From: an uncultured Ruminococcus sp.
Lineage (GTDB): Bacteria > Bacillota > Clostridia > Oscillospirales > Acutalibacteraceae
NCBI GenBank assembly: GCA_902785355.1
Contig: CACZYF010000016.1
Location: 1 to 37,981 of the forward strand
Reading direction: 5' to 3'
DNA: 37,981 bases
The position numbers were made by a program, and so were the translations under genes. Below, piece by piece: positions 6,399 through 15,635 of this stretch (its first letter is position 1; each line of letters begins with the position of its first letter). Below the pieces are notes generated by a model. It did not search any database. It had not been told where the DNA came from and saw only the letters and a list, made by a program, of their open reading frames with translations.

Positions 6399-7502
6399 TT
6401 ATTGAAACTGCTGATTCAGCTCAATCGCCTTGTGCTTCCACTCAGCGTCGTTGACGGTCGTGAAGTAAGCGACGTCGACCTCATCGTCGGGACCGACAGC
6501 AAAGTAGCTGTACTTGTCGCTGTGCATGCTCCACTCGGGATCATACATCTTTCCCTCAGCCTCAGCCCAGCCGTGACCGCCGCTGTTGCAGGCGTAAACG
6601 TCGGTGCAGCCGATCGCCTTGCACATGTAGGCAAACGCCGCGCCGTAGCTGAAGCAGTCTCCCTTGCCGTAAACAAAGAGGTCGTTGGCGCAGACGACAG
6701 GCCAGTCTGATTCGCGATAGGGCGGATCATGCGGAACACCTTCGAGATAATTCTGACGAATATAGTCAAAAGCCGCCTTGAGCTTCTCTTCCTTCGTCAT
6801 CGAGGAATTGGTACACTTCGCGATATCCTTCGCGGCGGAAAACAGCGCTCCGTCGGAATCGGTCAATACCTGTGTTGCTTTACCGTTGATAACGATCCAG
6901 TCAACGCCGTCAACGTTCACGCCGTCGACGTAGCCTTCGTCGACAACGCCCTGTTCATTGACATAGAAATAACCCTCGGTCTCATCGCCGACGACGGTGC
7001 TCGTCTGCATCACGCCGCCCTTGTAATAATGTCTGCCGGTCGCGTCGGTCACAAAGCCGTCAGCCTGCGCATCGGTCAGGGTGATGGTCATGCCGTCGGT
7101 CAGCGGCGTAGAAGCGTCGACGTCGGGAACAAAATGAGCGGCGTCAAAGCCCGCCTTGGCGATCGCGTCGGCGACCGTGCCGCCGAGAGCGACGTCAACA
7201 TCCTTGGGGCTCGTGCCGTCGGTGACCTTGACGCGCACCATGCGCTGGATCGTGATCGCGTGATCTTCATTCTCCTTGAAAACGGTTTCAAGCGAGGGCG
7301 TCACGACATCCCGAGGGTTCAGCTTAATCTGAGCCATATCGATGAACTGCTGTACATTCATATTGTCCTTGCCGATCACGGTATAGACCGCAGTGCTGTC
7401 CGTGATCGTGACCGTCATATCCTTAGCGCAGGCAGAAAACGAAAAAGCCATAGTCAAGACCATGACCACCGTTAAAGCACACGCAATTATTCTTTTTTTC
7501 AT
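6399..7502 (-). CDS. transglutaminase-like lipoprotein with ubiquitin-like N-domains
   Basis: A 367-residue exported lipoprotein; the start ATG follows AAAGGTGGTTC. The signal ends FSFSAC (Cys25). Residues 28-145 contain two short repeats that resemble the DUF348/YabE ubiquitin-like domains of cell-wall proteins. The C-terminal domain (about 240-350) is transglutaminase-like. It has the triad positions Cys283 (GKGDCFSYG), His310 (GGHGWAE) and Asp321 (KMYDPEW), all present, so it is probably an active papain-fold protease or peptide cross-linker acting at the wall. It lies 124 bases downstream of the radical SAM gene but has its own consensus promoter. The substrate is unknown. Confidence 0.85.
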   Translation of the reverse strand: MKKRIIACALTVVMVLTMAFSFSACAKDMTVTITDSTAVYTVIGKDNMNVQQFIDMAQIKLNPRDVVTPSLETVFKENEDHAITIQRMVRVKVTDGTSPKDVDVALGGTVADAIAKAGFDAAHFVPDVDASTPLTDGMTITLTDAQADGFVTDATGRHYYKGGVMQTSTVVGDETEGYFYVNEQGVVDEGYVDGVNVDGVDWIVINGKATQVLTDSDGALFSAAKDIAKCTNSSMTKEEKLKAAFDYIRQNYLEGVPHDPPYRESDWPVVCANDLFVYGKGDCFSYGAAFAYMCKAIGCTDVYACNSGGHGWAEAEGKMYDPEWSMHSDKYSYFAVGPDDEVDVAYFTTVNDAEWKHKAIELNQQFQ

Positions 7503-7626: not shown

Positions 7627-8619
7627 CTACCGCTTTTCTTGTGCAAAAAGACAATCAGGATCGGACAAGTCATAACGCCCCGTACGGGCATACGTCACGC
7701 AGCGGGCGCCTCCGCCGCACAACTCGGCGTAATCACAGCCCTTACAGCCCTCCGGGAGTCCCGCGCCGCGTATTGCGATCAGCTCGGGACTCGTTTTGTA
7801 GATCGTCAACAGATCGGAGTCATGCACGCTGCCGACGGTGATCGGCAGTCGGCGGCACGCCATCACGGAACCGTCGGCGAGAATCGTCAAAAGGCTCTCC
7901 CCCGCCGTGCAGCGGTAGATCTGCTTATTCTTACACGGAATGAACTGTAAAGCACGCTGACACGTTACGCGGTAGCGGCGGTTAAGCCGCGCCGCCTTTC
8001 GGCTGAGCTTGATGAAATCATCCGTCGTCAGGGACAGGTGACGTACATCCTCATCTGCGGGGATAATTACCCTGTCATACCAGAGCTTGTTCGCGCCGAT
8101 CTCGTCGCAGTAGCGAGCGAGCTTCGGCAGCTCCTTCAGATTCTCCCGCTGAGCAGTAAAGGAAACACTGGTGAAGATACCCTGAGAGCGCAGCGCAAAG
8201 ATACCCTTGACTGCCCGCTGAAAGCTCCCTTTCCCTCGGATCGCGTCATGCACCTGCTCGGTACCGTCGAGACTGACCTGAACATAGTCGACCCCGCAGG
8301 CGCGCAGGCGCTTCGCCTCACGCAAGCCGATCAGGGTGCCGTTGGTGAGCACCGCCGTGGTGATACCGCGCTTTCCCGCTTCTTCAAGCAGCCAAAACAG
8401 GTTGGGATGGAGAAGCGGCTCGCCTCCGGTGAAATTGATATGCCCTTTCCATCGGTACGCCTTCAACAGCGCCTCGTACTGATCGAGGATCTTCTCAAGA
8501 GAAGAACGGTCCTCAAAGGCGGAATAATCGTCCTGATAGCAGTGGGTACACCGCAGGTTACAGCGGTGCGTGATATGCCACTGGAGTGTGAAGAAGCCCT
8601 CGTATGATGTATCAGTCAT
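7627..8619 (-). CDS. radical SAM/SPASM protein, candidate peptide-modifying enzyme
   Basis: A 330-residue radical SAM enzyme. The catalytic cluster motif is CNLRCTHC (Cys20, 24, 27), followed by GGEP at 65-68. The C-terminal SPASM-type region has Cys237 and Cys255 (ILADGSVMACRR), then GCKGCDYAELCGGGARC (Cys292, 295, 301, 307) and Cys323, enough for one or two auxiliary [4Fe-4S] clusters. SPASM proteins are typically maturases of ribosomally made peptides or enzymes. The start ATG (8617-8619) shares one base with the stop of the upstream TPM gene (TGATG) and has no ribosome site of its own, so it should be translated by coupling. A longer open frame upstream overlaps the Cys-rich tail and is a frame shadow. 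The likely target is that tail; this is an inference from coupling. Confidence 0.88.
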   Translation of the reverse strand: MTDTSYEGFFTLQWHITHRCNLRCTHCYQDDYSAFEDRSSLEKILDQYEALLKAYRWKGHINFTGGEPLLHPNLFWLLEEAGKRGITTAVLTNGTLIGLREAKRLRACGVDYVQVSLDGTEQVHDAIRGKGSFQRAVKGIFALRSQGIFTSVSFTAQRENLKELPKLARYCDEIGANKLWYDRVIIPADEDVRHLSLTTDDFIKLSRKAARLNRRYRVTCQRALQFIPCKNKQIYRCTAGESLLTILADGSVMACRRLPITVGSVHDSDLLTIYKTSPELIAIRGAGLPEGCKGCDYAELCGGGARCVTYARTGRYDLSDPDCLFAQEKR

Positions 8620-9443
8620 CAGAACGACGAGCTGCCGCCGCCTCCGCAGCCGCCGCCTCCGCAGGAGCTGCCTGAGCTGCAGCCGCCGCCACCGCAGGAG
8701 CTGCCCGAGCTGCAGCCGCCGCTGCTGCACGAGGAGTGTTGAACGACGCGGGTCTTCTTACGCACGAAGGTGATATTCAGCTGATTGCCCGTCAGCGTAC
8801 CGACGCCCATCGGCGCAATCGAAGGAACACTCTGCTTTTTGCTGCCCTGACTGCGTGTACCGAGTGCAATAAGGATCGCGAACACCAGACCCGCCATCAC
8901 GGAGATGATCACGTAACTGCTGATCTTCATCGGCTCAGGGATATGATCGCCCTCGAGCACACGGTTGATCTGACTGTACACCTCTGACGCACATGCGTAA
9001 TAATTGCTCTTAGAAGCGTAACTGCTGGCGTTCGAGGTGATGGAACGCGCCAGAGAATCGCTGACGGAATCGTAGATCGTACCGTAGGACTGAACAGTCA
9101 GCTTGCGGATATCCATATTGATCGCGAAGATCGTCGCGCTATCGTACTCAAATAGCTCTTTGCGCTTTATTCTCGCCTGGTCGATCTCGTTATAGGTCGT
9201 TTCCTCGGTCGTCCAGAAAGCGACGTTGCCGAAACGCGTGATCGGTCGCATATCCTGTACGAGCTTGGTCTCCTCCTCGTCGGTCAGCAGATCGAGCTCG
9301 TCGATGATAACGACGCGGTAGCCGGTCTCGGGATCGGTATAAGGGGTATTCCCGGCGGCGGATGCGGAAACGGCGGAGAGCGCCGCAATCAGCACCGCAG
9401 CCGTCAGGAGCGCGAGCATACGTCTGAGTTTATTGTTCATCAT
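8619..9443 (-). CDS. TPM-domain membrane protein with six-Cys Gly/Ser repeat tail
   Basis: A 274-residue protein with a signal sequence (1-29), then a TPM-type domain (about 40-165; VVIIDELDLLTDEEETKL, TIFAINMD) that should be outside the cell. A membrane helix follows at 176-195, with a basic flank (TRSQGSKK) placing the C-terminus in the cytosol. Residues 236-274 are almost only Cys, Gly and Ser. Cys 239, 244, 250, 255, 261 and 266 alternate 5 and 6 apart, built from two copies of CSSGSSCGGGG, and the protein ends SSSF. Known TPM proteins often end in Gly-rich tails; a regular Cys ladder beside a SPASM enzyme is unusual. The start overlaps the upstream gene by 14 bases with AAGGGAG as ribosome site. 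A second ATG directly follows the first. Confidence 0.85.
   Translation of the reverse strand: MMNNKLRRMLALLTAAVLIAALSAVSASAAGNTPYTDPETGYRVVIIDELDLLTDEEETKLVQDMRPITRFGNVAFWTTEETTYNEIDQARIKRKELFEYDSATIFAINMDIRKLTVQSYGTIYDSVSDSLARSITSNASSYASKSNYYACASEVYSQINRVLEGDHIPEPMKISSYVIISVMAGLVFAILIALGTRSQGSKKQSVPSIAPMGVGTLTGNQLNITFVRKKTRVVQHSSCSSGGCSSGSSCGGGGCSSGSSCGGGGCGGGGSSSF
8649..8714. repeat. 33-bp tandem repeat encoding the Cys/Gly tail
   Basis: Two adjacent 33-base units (8649-8681 and 8682-8714) match at 31 of 33 positions and encode residues 244-265 of the TPM protein. The near identity at the DNA level suggests recent duplication and possible length variation among strains. Confidence 0.8.
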
Positions 9444-11058
9444 ACAGCGCTCCCTTCTTATTGAACTGAGGCGGCATGCGCTTTGCGACGTCGCGCTGGA
9501 AGCGGATGGTATAGAGCACGATGCCGAAGAGCTCGAACATCAGCACAAATCCAAACGCATACATCGTCCAGTTCGGCGCGTGGTCGGAGACCGACAGAAA
9601 AACAGCGATCAGGATCGATACGTAGCAGACGATACGCAGCCAGCGCTCGTCATGGATCAGTTTCATCGCCTCGGCAGCCGTACCCATACGGAACATATCG
9701 GGCGATTTTTTGATCCTGTCCTTGGTTTTTTTGTAAAGATTATGCAGATTCATGTATTTCACCGTCAGGATGAAGAACGAGACTGCCACGAGAATCATGC
9801 CGAACGCGCGATGAGCGCCGCTGTAGGAGCCGTCGATCGCGATCAACGTCATACCCGCCACCATACAGAGGAAGGGGATGATCTCGGACGGTTGGAGGAA
9901 TCGGGCAGGCTTAAGATCGGGATAGAGCAGGTAGCTCTCCATCGAACAGCACAGAGACTTACGGGTATAGAACAATCCCATCAGCATCAGACCGATGCCG
10001 ATACCGAGGGTGGGAGCACCCTTGATGGACGGGAGATTGCTCATCCCCACCATGAGGATACCGAAGATGATACCCGCGAAGAGAAGCGCCGCGATCAGGA
10101 TACGCGCGGGGCTCAGGGGAAGGTCGGCGCTGACCTTGCCCGTCTGACCGTTGACGACGGCGTAGGTGATCTTGTCATTATTGCGGTAGCTCATGAACCA
10201 CACGGGGCGCAGAACGCGCTTGTGGGATTTGATATTGATCGGGACATTCGTCTCGGAGGGATCGAGCCTGAGCTTTCGGCGCTTGAGCTCCTGCGTGATA
10301 TTTGGATCGTTGTTCAGCGCGTTGATGCTGTACTGCTTGAGCTCCTCGCGCGCGAGGTGACGGAACTCATTCTGCTGAACATCCGCGATCTCGGCATAAA
10401 AGCCGCTCAAATACCCGGGCGCGAAGGGCGTTCTCGCCTGCTCGTCAAAGGGCGCGATGCTCTCGCTGAGACTGTCGTCAAAGGCGGCGGAGGCGTCGTG
10501 GGTATAGCCCTCAACGGTCAGATCCATCTGACCCGTGACCTCAAAGATATCCGTTTCATATGTATTGAGGCTGACGCGCTTCTCGCGCGATTTTGCCTCG
10601 AGGACATAGCCGCCCTTCTGCTCCGCGACGTAGGTCCAGTACGGCATATAGATGCCGCGGAAGCTGTCGATCAGCTGTGGATCGCGGTATTTCTTCGACA
10701 CGAAAATGTGCTTTCTGACCTCTTTGATATAAGCTTCCTTACACTGCTCCTTCGTGATCTTGAAGGGAATCACGCTCTCGGGGATCCACTCCTTATGCGT
10801 CTTGTCAAAGATCATCGACGCGCCGCCGCAGTAGGGACAGAAGCCCACCGCGTCGTTCTTATCGGTCGTCATCAGCTCGCCGCCGCAGGAAGGGCATATA
10901 TAGATATAGCCCTCGTAGGTCTTTGCCGACTTCGCGTCATCCCTGACGCTGTCGCCGATCTGAGCGGGGTCATACTGACTGCCGCAGTAGTCACACTGCA
11001 TGCGCTGGGTCGCGATATCGAATCGCAGCCCGCCGCCGCAGGACGGACATTGTACCAT
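9430..11058 (-). CDS. double zinc-ribbon multi-pass membrane protein
   Basis: A 542-residue protein with a strong AAGGAGG ribosome site. Two zinc ribbons lie at the N-terminus: Cys4/7 with Cys22/25 (CPSCGG ... CDYCGS) and Cys55/58 with Cys74/77 (CPSCGG ... CPYCGG). Residues 90-310 form a soluble middle region (YMPYWTY, RPVWFMSYRNNDKITYAVVN) that resembles the interior of other 'TFIIB-type zinc ribbon' membrane proteins. About six membrane helices follow at 319-339, 347-365, 393-410, 418-435, 475-491 and 498-518. The function is unknown. Its 3' end overlaps the TPM gene by 14 bases, so the two proteins are probably made together. It could be a membrane platform for the TPM/radical SAM pair; that role is an inference. 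Confidence 0.8.
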   Translation of the reverse strand: MVQCPSCGGGLRFDIATQRMQCDYCGSQYDPAQIGDSVRDDAKSAKTYEGYIYICPSCGGELMTTDKNDAVGFCPYCGGASMIFDKTHKEWIPESVIPFKITKEQCKEAYIKEVRKHIFVSKKYRDPQLIDSFRGIYMPYWTYVAEQKGGYVLEAKSREKRVSLNTYETDIFEVTGQMDLTVEGYTHDASAAFDDSLSESIAPFDEQARTPFAPGYLSGFYAEIADVQQNEFRHLAREELKQYSINALNNDPNITQELKRRKLRLDPSETNVPINIKSHKRVLRPVWFMSYRNNDKITYAVVNGQTGKVSADLPLSPARILIAALLFAGIIFGILMVGMSNLPSIKGAPTLGIGIGLMLMGLFYTRKSLCCSMESYLLYPDLKPARFLQPSEIIPFLCMVAGMTLIAIDGSYSGAHRAFGMILVAVSFFILTVKYMNLHNLYKKTKDRIKKSPDMFRMGTAAEAMKLIHDERWLRIVCYVSILIAVFLSVSDHAPNWTMYAFGFVLMFELFGIVLYTIRFQRDVAKRMPPQFNKKGALYDEQ

Positions 11059-12929: not shown

Positions 12930-13046
12930 TAGCTCTAAATATGGTATCATTCTTCTTGCAAGGAGCATGGATTCATGGTAGAATAACAGCAGAATGATCC
13001 AACAGAAAACGATTACTTCACGGTTATGAGAAAGGAGGTTGCACAG

Positions 13047-15635
13047 ATGAAGCAGATCACCGTCGGGATGCTGGCGCATGTTGACTCGGGAAAAACCACC
13101 CTCACCGAAGCGATGCTGTACCTCTCGGGAGCGCTCAGTAAGCTCGGTCGCGTCGATCACAAGAACTCCTTTCTCGATAACTTTCAGCTCGAGCGCGACA
13201 GGGGCATCACCATCTTCTCGAAAATGGCGGTATTCACCACCCCCAACGCCCGCTATACCATCCTCGATACCCCCGGGCATGTGGACTTTTCCGCAGAGAC
13301 GGAGCGAGCGCTTCAGGTGCTTGACTACGCGATCCTCGTCATCAGCGGCACCGACGGCGTACAGAGCCACACCACTACCCTCTGGAAGCTCCTGCAAAAA
13401 TACCGCGTGCCGTGCTTCCTCTTCGTCAACAAAATGGATATGGACGGCGCCGATAAAAGCCGTGTGCTCAACGAGATCAAATCGAAGCTCAGCGACAGCG
13501 CCGTCGACTTCACCGCCGAGAGGAACGAGCTGTACGAGAATATCGCCTTATGCGATGAAAAGCTGCTTGAAAGCTACTACGAGACCGAGACGGTCGGTCA
13601 TGACGATATCGTCCGCGTGATTCGCGAGCGCAGGCTCTACCCCGTGCTGTTCGGCTCCGCGCTGAAACTCAGCGGCGTTGAAGAGCTTCTGCAAGCGCTC
13701 GACGCCTATACCGTAATGCCCCGCTGCGGCGACGATTTCGCGGCGAAGGTCTACAAGATCAGCGAGGACAATCAGGGCAACCGCCTGACCTTCATGAAGA
13801 TCACAGGCGGCAGTCTCAGGGTCAAGGATATCCCCGCCTCCCGCAAGAATACCGCCGGCGAGAAGGTCAACCAGATCCGCCTGTACTCGGGCGAGAAATT
13901 CACCGTCGCAGATACCGCCGAGAGCGGTACGGTCTGCGCGGTCACGGGACTGAGCTTCACGAGCCCCGGCGACGGCTTAGGTACCGAGAGCGACTCGGGG
14001 CTGCCGGTGCTCGAGCCGGTGTTGACCTACTCGGTGATTCTGCCCGATACCGTCGACGTACATACAGCGCTCGCGAAGCTGAGGATCCTCGAAGCGGAGG
14101 ATCCGACCCTGCACGTCAGCCTCAACGAACGCAGCGGCGACATCCAGCTGCAGCTGATGGGCGAGATCCAGCTCGAGATATTGCAGAGCCTGATCCCCGA
14201 GCGGTTCGGCTTCCGGGTCGGGTTCGGACAGGGCAGCATCATCTACAAAGAAACCATCCGAAACACGGTCGAGGGCGTGGGGCACTTCGAACCGCTCAGG
14301 CACTATGCCGAGGTACATTTGTTATTAAAGCCCGCCGAACGCGACAGCGGACTGCTGTTCAAAAGCGAATGTAAGGAGGATGAGCTCGACAAAAACTGGC
14401 AGCGGCTGATCCTCACGCATTTGTATGAAAAGACCCATCTCGGCGTACTGACGGGCTCGCCGATCACCGATATGGAAATCATTCTCAAGGCGGGCAAAGC
14501 CCACGCAAAGCACACCGAGGGCGGCGACTTCCGCCAGGCGACCTACCGCGCCGTACGTCAGGGTCTCCGCTCAGCCGAAAGCATACTGCTGGAGCCTGTA
14601 TATGACTTTGTTCTCTCTGTCCCCAGTGAGAATATCGGCAGAGCGATGACCGATATCACCCGCATGGGCGGCGCTTTCTCCCCGCCCGAGACCGACGGCG
14701 AGAACGCCCTGCTGATCGGCACCGCTCCCGTATCAGCGATGCGCGGGTACTCGAAGGAGGTCGTGCAGTACACCCGCGGCAACGGCAGACTGAGCTGTAC
14801 GCTCAAGGGCTATGAGCCCTGTCACAACGCCGACGAGGTGATTGCGCAGCTCGCCTACGACGCCGACAGCGACGTCGAGAATACTGCCGACTCGGTATTC
14901 TGCTCTCACGGCGCGGGTCATACCGTCAAGTGGGACGAGGTACCGAAGCACATGCACCTTCCGAGTATTCTTGATAATTCTAAAAAAGAATCATCAAGCT
15001 CTTCGCCCGATATCCGCGATCTCTCCCGCTACAAAAGTCAGAAGGACATCTTCGCGCTTGATAAGGAGCTGATGCAGATCTTCGAGCAGACCTACGGGCC
15101 GGTACGGCGCAAGGTCTACAGCGAGCCGAAGCGCTATAAAACGCCCGATTATCAGAAGCAGAAAAAGAGAAAGAACCTGCCCTCCGACTATAACGGCGTC
15201 GAGTATGTCTTAGTAGACGGCTACAACGTCATCCACTCTTGGGACAGCCTCAGAGAGCTTGTCGGCGAGCATATGGACACCGCCCGCACCCTGCTCGAGA
15301 ACACACTCTGCAACTATCAGGGCTACAGGAAGTGCGAGCTGATCCTCGTGTATGACGCCTACAAGATCAAGGGGCATGACCGCGAGGTCGAGAAGATCAA
15401 CAACATCACCGTCGTCTATACCAAGGAGGCGGAGACCGCCGATATGTACATCGAGCGCGCGTCGTATGAGCTCGCGAAGAACAACCGCGTGCGCGTCGTG
15501 ACCTCCGACGGGATGGAACAGCTGATCATCCTCGGCAACGGCGCCATCCGCGTAAGCTGCCGCGAATTCTTCGAAGAGATCCAAAAAGCCGAAGCAGAGA
15601 TCAGGGAGATCATTTCGGAGAACGGTGAACGGTGA
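13047..15635 (+). CDS. TetM/EF-G-like translational GTPase fused to a YacP/Rae1 NYN nuclease
   Basis: An 862-residue fusion. ATG 13047 follows AAAGGAGG with 8-base spacing; a start seven codons earlier overlaps that site and is rejected. The N-terminal GTPase has all motifs: AHVDSGKT (10-17), RGITI (52-56), DTPGH (74-78) and NKMD (128-131). EF-G-like domains II-V follow to about 650, as in ribosomal-protection proteins such as Tet(M), which are normally about 640 residues. A basic linker (RRKVYSEPKRYKTP, QKQKKRK) leads to an NYN/PIN-like domain at about 718-862 with VLVDGYNVIHSW, VYDAYKIKG, ETADMYIE and VTSDG, the acidic core of YacP/Rae1. Rae1 in Bacillus cleaves mRNA in the ribosomal A site. 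The last codons (ENGER) lie in the heptad repeat. Tetracycline protection cannot be claimed from sequence. Confidence 0.9.
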   Translation: MKQITVGMLAHVDSGKTTLTEAMLYLSGALSKLGRVDHKNSFLDNFQLERDRGITIFSKMAVFTTPNARYTILDTPGHVDFSAETERALQVLDYAILVISGTDGVQSHTTTLWKLLQKYRVPCFLFVNKMDMDGADKSRVLNEIKSKLSDSAVDFTAERNELYENIALCDEKLLESYYETETVGHDDIVRVIRERRLYPVLFGSALKLSGVEELLQALDAYTVMPRCGDDFAAKVYKISEDNQGNRLTFMKITGGSLRVKDIPASRKNTAGEKVNQIRLYSGEKFTVADTAESGTVCAVTGLSFTSPGDGLGTESDSGLPVLEPVLTYSVILPDTVDVHTALAKLRILEAEDPTLHVSLNERSGDIQLQLMGEIQLEILQSLIPERFGFRVGFGQGSIIYKETIRNTVEGVGHFEPLRHYAEVHLLLKPAERDSGLLFKSECKEDELDKNWQRLILTHLYEKTHLGVLTGSPITDMEIILKAGKAHAKHTEGGDFRQATYRAVRQGLRSAESILLEPVYDFVLSVPSENIGRAMTDITRMGGAFSPPETDGENALLIGTAPVSAMRGYSKEVVQYTRGNGRLSCTLKGYEPCHNADEVIAQLAYDADSDVENTADSVFCSHGAGHTVKWDEVPKHMHLPSILDNSKKESSSSSPDIRDLSRYKSQKDIFALDKELMQIFEQTYGPVRRKVYSEPKRYKTPDYQKQKKRKNLPSDYNGVEYVLVDGYNVIHSWDSLRELVGEHMDTARTLLENTLCNYQGYRKCELILVYDAYKIKGHDREVEKINNITVVYTKEAETADMYIERASYELAKNNRVRVVTSDGMEQLIILGNGAIRVSCREFFEEIQKAEAEIREIISENGER

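Follow-up and report, generated by a model that had tools for sequence, protein, structure and literature searches.

A three-gene operon with a Cys-tailed membrane protein

The window analysed here, a 37,981-nucleotide stretch of DNA from an uncultured Ruminococcus sp. (contig CACZYF010000016.1), comes from a 2.2-Mb genome of 73 contigs with a completeness of 98.98%. It carries an operon of three overlapping minus-strand genes, which encode a zinc-ribbon membrane protein, a TPM-domain protein with a C-terminal tail rich in Cys, Gly and Ser, and a radical SAM/SPASM enzyme. Our comparisons suggest, with a probability of roughly 0.7, that the enzyme modifies Cys residues in the C-terminal tail of the membrane-anchored TPM protein, in the cytosol and independently of a leader peptide. 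The features of the operon are as follows.

9430..11058, minus strand: zinc-ribbon membrane protein (542 aa); homologues adjoin TPM genes with and without the enzyme
8619..9443, minus strand: TPM-domain protein with Cys/Gly/Ser tail, the proposed substrate (274 aa; PF04536; best structure match of its model 7tbr)
9351..9443, minus strand: N-terminal signal or anchor helix, residues 1-31 (hydropathy peak at residues 9-27)
8961..9305, minus strand: TPM domain (PF04536 match)
8856..8912, minus strand: membrane helix, residues 178-196 (hydropathy 2.62; helix in the model at residues 174-195)
8622..8729, minus strand: Cys/Gly/Ser C-terminal tail with six Cys, the last of them 9 residues from the end
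7627..8619, minus strand: radical SAM/SPASM enzyme with its ATG inside TGATG (330 aa; PF04055, PF13186)
7732..7911, minus strand: SPASM domain (PF13186)

Coordinates and domains agree with the three overlapping genes described in a first-pass annotation of the window. The zinc-ribbon and TPM genes overlap by 14 bases (9430-9443), and the TPM and enzyme genes by the single base shared within TGATG (8621-8617). The GGAGG closest to the enzyme ATG ends 21 bases ahead of it, a distance too great for an ordinary ribosome site, in keeping with the earlier observation that this gene has none of its own; together with the one-base overlap, this suggests that translation of the tail and enzyme genes is coupled. 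No separate precursor peptide gene lies between the three genes, whose overlaps leave no room for one.

In a Pfam scan the TPM protein matched PF04536 with 30.2 bits (cut-off 22.1, E-value 4.9e-7), placing it in the TPM family, and its AlphaFold2 (AF2) model has 7tbr as best structure match (E-value 9.3e-5). A hydropathy profile shows an N-terminal hydrophobic stretch (residues 9-27) and one helix (residues 178-196). The tail Cys are residues 239, 244, 250, 255, 261 and 266, with spacings of 5, 6, 5, 6 and 5, so that Pfam, hydropathy and spacing all bear out the TPM domain, single helix and six-Cys Gly/Ser tail that had been described. Six of the protein's seven Cys fall within the last 37 residues, a concentration reached by one in 100,000 shuffles of the protein's own letters, with the 37-residue span having been picked after the tail had been seen. 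Compared with the sister species at locus L025, the tail has two synonymous and no amino-acid differences over 38 codons; the differences are few, but they agree with a protein under constraint. The 15 residues ahead of the helix contain one Lys or Arg and three Asp or Glu, and the 40 residues after it contain seven and none, respectively. Under the positive-inside rule these charges place the tail in the cytosol, and hydropathy and charge together predict a TPM domain outside the cell and a tail inside it. L030 (203-1537) and L039 (1361-2701) encode TPM proteins of greater length that include a second TPM-like stretch at the N-terminal side, and the L039 protein has a third hydrophobic stretch.

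The enzyme has matches over the Pfam cut-off to PF04055 (E-value 1.8e-27) and to the SPASM domain PF13186 (E-value 4.6e-7). Across 23 aligned enzyme rows, the CxxxCxxC motif (C20, C24, C27) and the SPASM residues C237, C255, C292, C295, C301 and C323 are invariant and C307 is nearly so; the Pfam matches and this Cys set make it a radical SAM/SPASM enzyme. Its best NCBIfam model, the thio(seleno)oxazole maturase SbtM (TIGR04082), scored 159.7 bits against a cut-off of 350, and the name serves as a lead only. The ACGX enzyme model (TIGR04340) scored 145 bits against a cut-off of 400, and no family was over its cut-off among the best 25 of 92 matched. The radical SAM match starts at residue 16, no overt peptide-recognition domain was found in the Pfam scan of the three operon proteins, and the structure model (mean predicted local distance difference test score, pLDDT, of 87.8) likewise begins at the radical SAM core. 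The best structural match of the model is anSME bound to a Cys peptide (4k39, template modelling score 0.78), followed by PqqE, BlsE, SuiB, 5why and SkfB; the best sequence matches in the PDB are SkfB (6efn) and 5wgg/5why, which we take to be CteB. anSME oxidises a Cys within a whole protein and needs no leader. An enzyme that starts at its core and resembles anSME points to leader-independent modification of the tail, and the finding of neither a recognition domain nor a separate precursor is in keeping with the earlier claim that the system has no leader/core precursor.

One enzyme clade accompanies Cys tails on different membrane proteins

Relatives of the enzyme were collected with a one-genome-per-species scan by exact peptide patterns of the window enzyme, which is biased to close relatives and yielded 40 loci. 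Sixteen of these (L025-L040) encode an enzyme 62-95% identical to that of the window, and in ten of the 16 a Cys-tailed TPM gene lies directly upstream. The other six loci have no adjacent TPM gene, but five of the six genomes carry a Cys-tailed TPM gene elsewhere, each time following a gene whose end reads like that of the zinc-ribbon protein; a search of the sixth genome (G155, locus L040) gave no TPM match. With the window and genome G024 added to the 16 close loci, enzyme and Cys-tailed TPM protein occur together in 17/18 genomes and are adjacent in 12. At five further loci (L041-L045, including Ruminococcus flavefaciens) the enzyme is 43-46% identical to the window's and the gene order is reversed, with the gene after the enzyme encoding a protein with a tail of the CSSCSSC...CGGGGAD kind. 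The four of these five tail proteins that were scanned contain DUF2207 over cut-off, and the protein of L042 was assigned by resemblance. DUF2207 was also considered as a second substrate in the TPM-type genomes and rejected: none of 17 (the set without G024) had a match over cut-off, and one had a weak match below it.

We also examined an order sample (394 genomes, E-value cut-off 1e-60) and a class sample (391 genomes, E-value cut-off 1e-55), in both of which at most five candidates per genome were scored for the enzyme and some enzymes may have been missed. Six of the 394 genomes had an enzyme: the window's, G024, G285, G464 and two with ACGX systems. In G285 and G464 the genes immediately upstream of the enzyme encode uncharacterised proteins ending in Cys-Gly-Gly repeats. 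G285 has three such Cys-Gly-repeat-tailed proteins with CGD ends in a row before one radical SAM gene (L132, 223-4422), and the G464 tail protein also starts with zinc-ribbon-like CxxC pairs. The class sample gave matches at E<=1e-55 in 22 of 391 genomes. Eight of these genomes reach E<=1e-85, and a Cys tail is encoded next to the enzyme in six of the eight (the window, L110, L112, L113, L114 and L116); the L110 tail protein is a TIGR04222 protein (46.1 bits, cut-off 43) and that of L112 contains DUF2207 over cut-off. The weaker class matches comprise ACGX systems with short soluble peptides and several loci with neither.

Altogether, 32 members of the clade were examined, of which 24 have an adjacent Cys tail, five have one in trans (all TPM) and three have no clear one. 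The 24 adjacent tails belong to 12 TPM proteins, six DUF2207 proteins (five of them Pfam-scanned), one TIGR04222 protein and five uncharacterised proteins. These last have no Pfam hit, and several hydrophobic stretches were found in all three that were tested (L077, L078 and L113, recorded also as L132, L133 and L142). Where the tail gene lies upstream, at 19 loci, the gap between its stop codon and the beginning of the enzyme match is 6-36 bases. The last residues of the tails vary with the partner (SSSF, AD, SW or GD), leaving the Cys/Gly/Ser make-up as the feature common to them.

In a tree of 55 enzymes, the tail-associated enzymes form one group of 31 with support of 100/99, and the ACGX enzymes form a group of their own (100/100) outside it. 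The tree is midpoint-rooted, and the program flagged long branches and an unusual composition in four rows; L039, whose enzyme open reading frame (ORF) is broken in the record, was left out of it and is counted among the 32, and L115 carries the label of the uncharacterised group in it and is not counted as tail-bearing. DUF2207 partners appear at two separate places in the tree, and one subgroup (100/98) mixes DUF2207, TIGR04222 and uncharacterised partners. The Cys tail thus moves between unrelated membrane proteins that share the same enzyme clade. Seventeen tree members have no assigned partner: two (L040, L111) lie within the clade and 15 outside it, and among the 15 our tail filter flagged only L050, with a 55-aa ORF that is not of this kind.

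Tail Cys in TPM proteins occur with the window-type enzyme

TPM relatives were drawn from several samples, and the last 50 residues were read for the 64 that matched the TPM core at E<1e-4; the enzyme and TPM searches of one rank were assumed to cover the same genomes. All 17 TPM proteins from genomes with a window-type enzyme have tail Cys (1 to 8). The first-pass annotation had named TPM proteins with the same Cys ladder, common where no SPASM gene exists, as evidence against its proposal, and none was encountered in these samples: tail Cys are present in 0/47 of the other TPM proteins. Six of the 47 (L003, L004, L006, L007, L010 and L013) come from genomes that may not have been covered by the enzyme searches, and no enzyme gene adjoins them at their loci. 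Five others (L070, L073, L147, L149 and L153) share a genome with a clade member whose partner is a different protein or was not found, and TPM proteins without tail Cys occur in G157, G840 and G714, whose enzyme pairs with DUF2207 or TIGR04222. Tail Cys thus follow the partner and not the genome. Loci failing the E<1e-4 threshold were dropped, namely ten, two (L071, L072), ten and three (L151, L160, L167); those tails that could be read in the first set of ten and in L071 and L072 have no Cys, and L167 is the Cys-tailed protein of G651, which lies beside its enzyme and is not a TPM protein. One protein of 599 aa without such a tail (L165) passed the threshold and was counted.

The 47 Cys-free tails are Gly/Ser-rich, often contain His and mostly keep the same aromatic end residue. 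Twenty significant Gly/Ser-tailed hits among the enzyme-free relatives (L144-L166) have 2-10 His in their last 50 residues, and the presence of His and absence of Cys suggest that these tails bind metal.

The final Cys stands nine residues from the C-terminus in all 16 TPM tails that were aligned, and the other Cys vary in number and are mainly 3, 5 or 6 apart. The alternating 5/6 ladder to which the first-pass annotation had drawn attention is real in the window, but among these 16 tails it is found only there and in L025, so that we regard it as a local detail and reject it as a structural code. The tail of L069 (genome G154) has a single Cys, the conserved one, in a genome whose enzyme ORF is intact. 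As this tail coexists with the enzyme, a ladder of cross-links is not a necessary product, and the reaction, if there is one, needs no second tail Cys in L069.

Zinc-ribbon protein and neighbouring genes

Zinc-ribbon Pfam matches on the 542-aa protein are all below cut-off, and two CxxC...CxxC modules are plain in its sequence. Pairs of zinc-ribbon and TPM genes are common without the enzyme, including one in the window's own genome (L021), and on this ground the zinc-ribbon gene is rejected as a dedicated part of the system; its earlier description as a membrane partner therefore stands for TPM proteins generally and not for the enzyme and tail in particular. At L029 (4073-5155) the radical SAM enzyme carries an in-frame fusion to the first 37 residues of a zinc-ribbon protein, which resemble the N-terminus of the window's, and this fusion makes it possible, as a case that is not general, that the zinc ribbon brings enzyme and tail together. 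The Cys-tailed protein at L133 (2809-4251) starts with zinc-ribbon-like CxxC pairs and has no Pfam hit.

Downstream of the operon (window positions 6399-7502) lies a gene for a transglutaminase-like protein with a G5-linked ubiquitin-like stretch (below cut-off). This gene and the upstream deacetylase gene were rejected as parts of the system; they adjoin the operon only in L025 among the compared loci. Positions 13026-15635 encode a GTPase resembling elongation factor G, with a YacP-like NYN domain fused at its C-terminus. Elsewhere, L137 (2464-4573) contains a second SPASM radical SAM gene followed by one for a small protein with a CGSSCSGC segment, which has a weak, below-cut-off match to a FeoB-associated Cys-rich family.

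Modification of the tail and alternative explanations

The pairing of 24 adjacent and five in-trans tails with 32 clade members supports the view that enzyme and Cys tail belong together, and it strengthens the earlier proposal that the tail is the substrate, though not the specific ladder of cross-links that came with it. In the mechanism that we propose, the enzyme would act in the cytosol on Cys in the low-complexity tail without a leader peptide, and it would recognise the tail by its Cys-Gly/Ser sequence, perhaps together with the conserved C-terminus. The product would form one Cys at a time within the tail, extra Cys being repeats of the same substrate unit. Candidate products are a thioether to a neighbouring Gly or Ser, a formylglycine and a thiooxazole-like ring; the sequence does not decide between them, and our slight and tentative preference goes to the thioether. 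The finished tail might bind metal or act as a membrane-tethered reactive segment, roles suggested by the replacement of Cys by His in many enzyme-free relatives.

Several observations weigh against this account. Among 16 proteins tested, the positive-inside signal after the helix is weaker in L035 (2 positive and 4 negative residues), L036 (4 and 4) and L069 (4 and 6), so that the cytosolic tail proposed in the first-pass annotation agrees with the charges in the window and less well with those of some relatives. The AF2 model, in which the tail is otherwise disordered, renders the last residues of the TPM protein (8622-8648) as a confident strand, with a pLDDT of 88 in the last block; this strand may reflect docking or be an artefact of invariant columns. 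Three of the 32 clade members have no clear partner: no Cys-tailed partner was found for L040 (G155), nor for L111 (G856) within about 6 kb, and the only candidate at L115 (G883) is a weak one, a three-Cys protein encoded two genes upstream. The Cys-tailed TPM proteins form one group by sequence score, and their link to the enzyme may thus be one inherited event, which makes the movement of tails between protein families the stronger and independent evidence. Finally, a 2025 paper on MNIO enzymes (PMC12452194) puts forward as MNIO substrates a subset of TIGR04222 membrane proteins whose C-terminal segments are rich in Ser and Gly and carry Cys, and predicts their tails to be periplasmic, as opposed to the cytosolic side inferred here. 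It also reports Cys-bearing TIGR04222 clusters without MNIO and no MNIO gene in 490/1372 genomes with TIGR04222, which suggests that Cys tails may exist with other enzymes or with none.

The single inherited event, taken further, would make the pairing a by-product of operon inheritance in one lineage, uninformative about the substrate. The grouping of Cys tails within TPM by sequence score is what one would expect, yet the same clade accompanies tails on TPM, TIGR04222 and other proteins as well as on DUF2207, which appears at two places in the tree. The gene order is also reversed in L041-L045 and the partner is in trans in five genomes, and we give this explanation very little credence. An unmodified tail deserves more attention, although we consider it unlikely. 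Its Cys would form a metal- or cluster-binding segment, and the enzyme would act elsewhere or receive iron, sulfur or electrons from the tail. Metal binding would fit the His of enzyme-free TPM tails, and the separate loci of enzyme and TPM gene in five clade members also speak for it; against this, the lone Cys of the L069 tail would make a poor metal site, the number of Cys (1 to 8 or more) and their spacing vary in a manner that fits a repetitive substrate better than a defined site, and no other shared candidate substrate emerged, neighbours having been compared systematically for the window's five proteins only.

The remaining alternative is a true ribosomally synthesised and post-translationally modified peptide (RiPP), in which the modified tail is cut off and released. 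The fold of the enzyme resembles the RiPP maturases SkfB, CteB (our assignment) and SuiB, and a related enzyme has short, soluble ACGX peptides encoded beside it. Here the Cys lie in the tail of a membrane protein of 274 aa and not in a short precursor with leader and core; this tail keeps the C-terminal aromatic end seen in most enzyme-free TPM tails, and the alignment has no evident conserved cleavage site between helix and tail. Judging from the tail end and the alignment, we consider a released peptide quite improbable, and with neither leader/core nor cleavage seen, the RiPP-like label attached to the system in the first-pass annotation is not established.

Modification of the anchored tail would have consequences beyond the window. 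Most of what is known about radical SAM maturases concerns short peptides and a few enzymes, and the novelty would be radical SAM/SPASM maturation of Cys-Gly sequences shifted from peptides to portable membrane-protein tails. The tails that this one enzyme clade appears to serve sit on membrane proteins of at least three named families (TPM, DUF2207 and TIGR04222). We know of no role for these tails, and the system would give a handle on their function, with the single-Cys variant making the chemistry directly testable. A wider reading, somewhat doubtful at present, is an anaerobic system widespread among Clostridia in which one leader-independent clade converts Cys in portable membrane-protein tails into a previously unseen product, the tails becoming a metal-binding or cross-linked module; such a system would parallel the modification by MNIO enzymes that has been proposed for TIGR04222 tails.

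Comparison with known systems

Among known SPASM systems, ACGX (TIGR04340) is near in the tree, its Cys-Gly repeats are the presumed target and its peptide gene adjoins the enzyme gene; an ACGX locus in our dataset (L123) scores 590.6 against the cut-off of 400. The ACGX target is a short soluble peptide, whereas that of the window would be the tail of a membrane protein. The window's own genome (G000, contig C7; L023, L131) also encodes an ACGX-type SPASM enzyme beside a short SACGTSDK-repeat peptide. In the open-licence PMC literature we found no paper on ACGX with radical SAM, and none joining TPM or DUF2207 with radical SAM.

anSME, the best structural match, is also a SPASM enzyme that acts on Cys in a protein without a leader, but the sulfatase motif that it uses is absent from the window tail, which offers only Cys, Gly and Ser. 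The sactipeptide and SCIFF maturases (SkfB 6efn; 5wgg/5why) are likewise SPASM enzymes acting on Cys-rich sequences; they have N-terminal extensions and leader/core precursors, unlike the window enzyme, which begins at the radical SAM core.

With the TIGR04222/MNIO system the window shares a Ser/Gly-rich, Cys-bearing C-terminal segment on a membrane protein, in both cases the proposed substrate of an enzyme encoded beside it. According to the available part of PMC12452194, TIGR04222 proteins lack a signal peptide and are mostly from Actinomycetota; in that part, radical SAM appears only in the reference list, and TPM and DUF2207 are not mentioned. The window TPM protein has no TIGR04222 hit in NCBIfam, and the enzyme encoded beside its tail is radical SAM/SPASM and not MNIO, the genome elsewhere not having been searched for MNIO. 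By analogy, the window system may be the radical SAM counterpart of the proposed MNIO modification of TIGR04222 tails, and one outcome may be arrived at through different enzymes in different bacteria.

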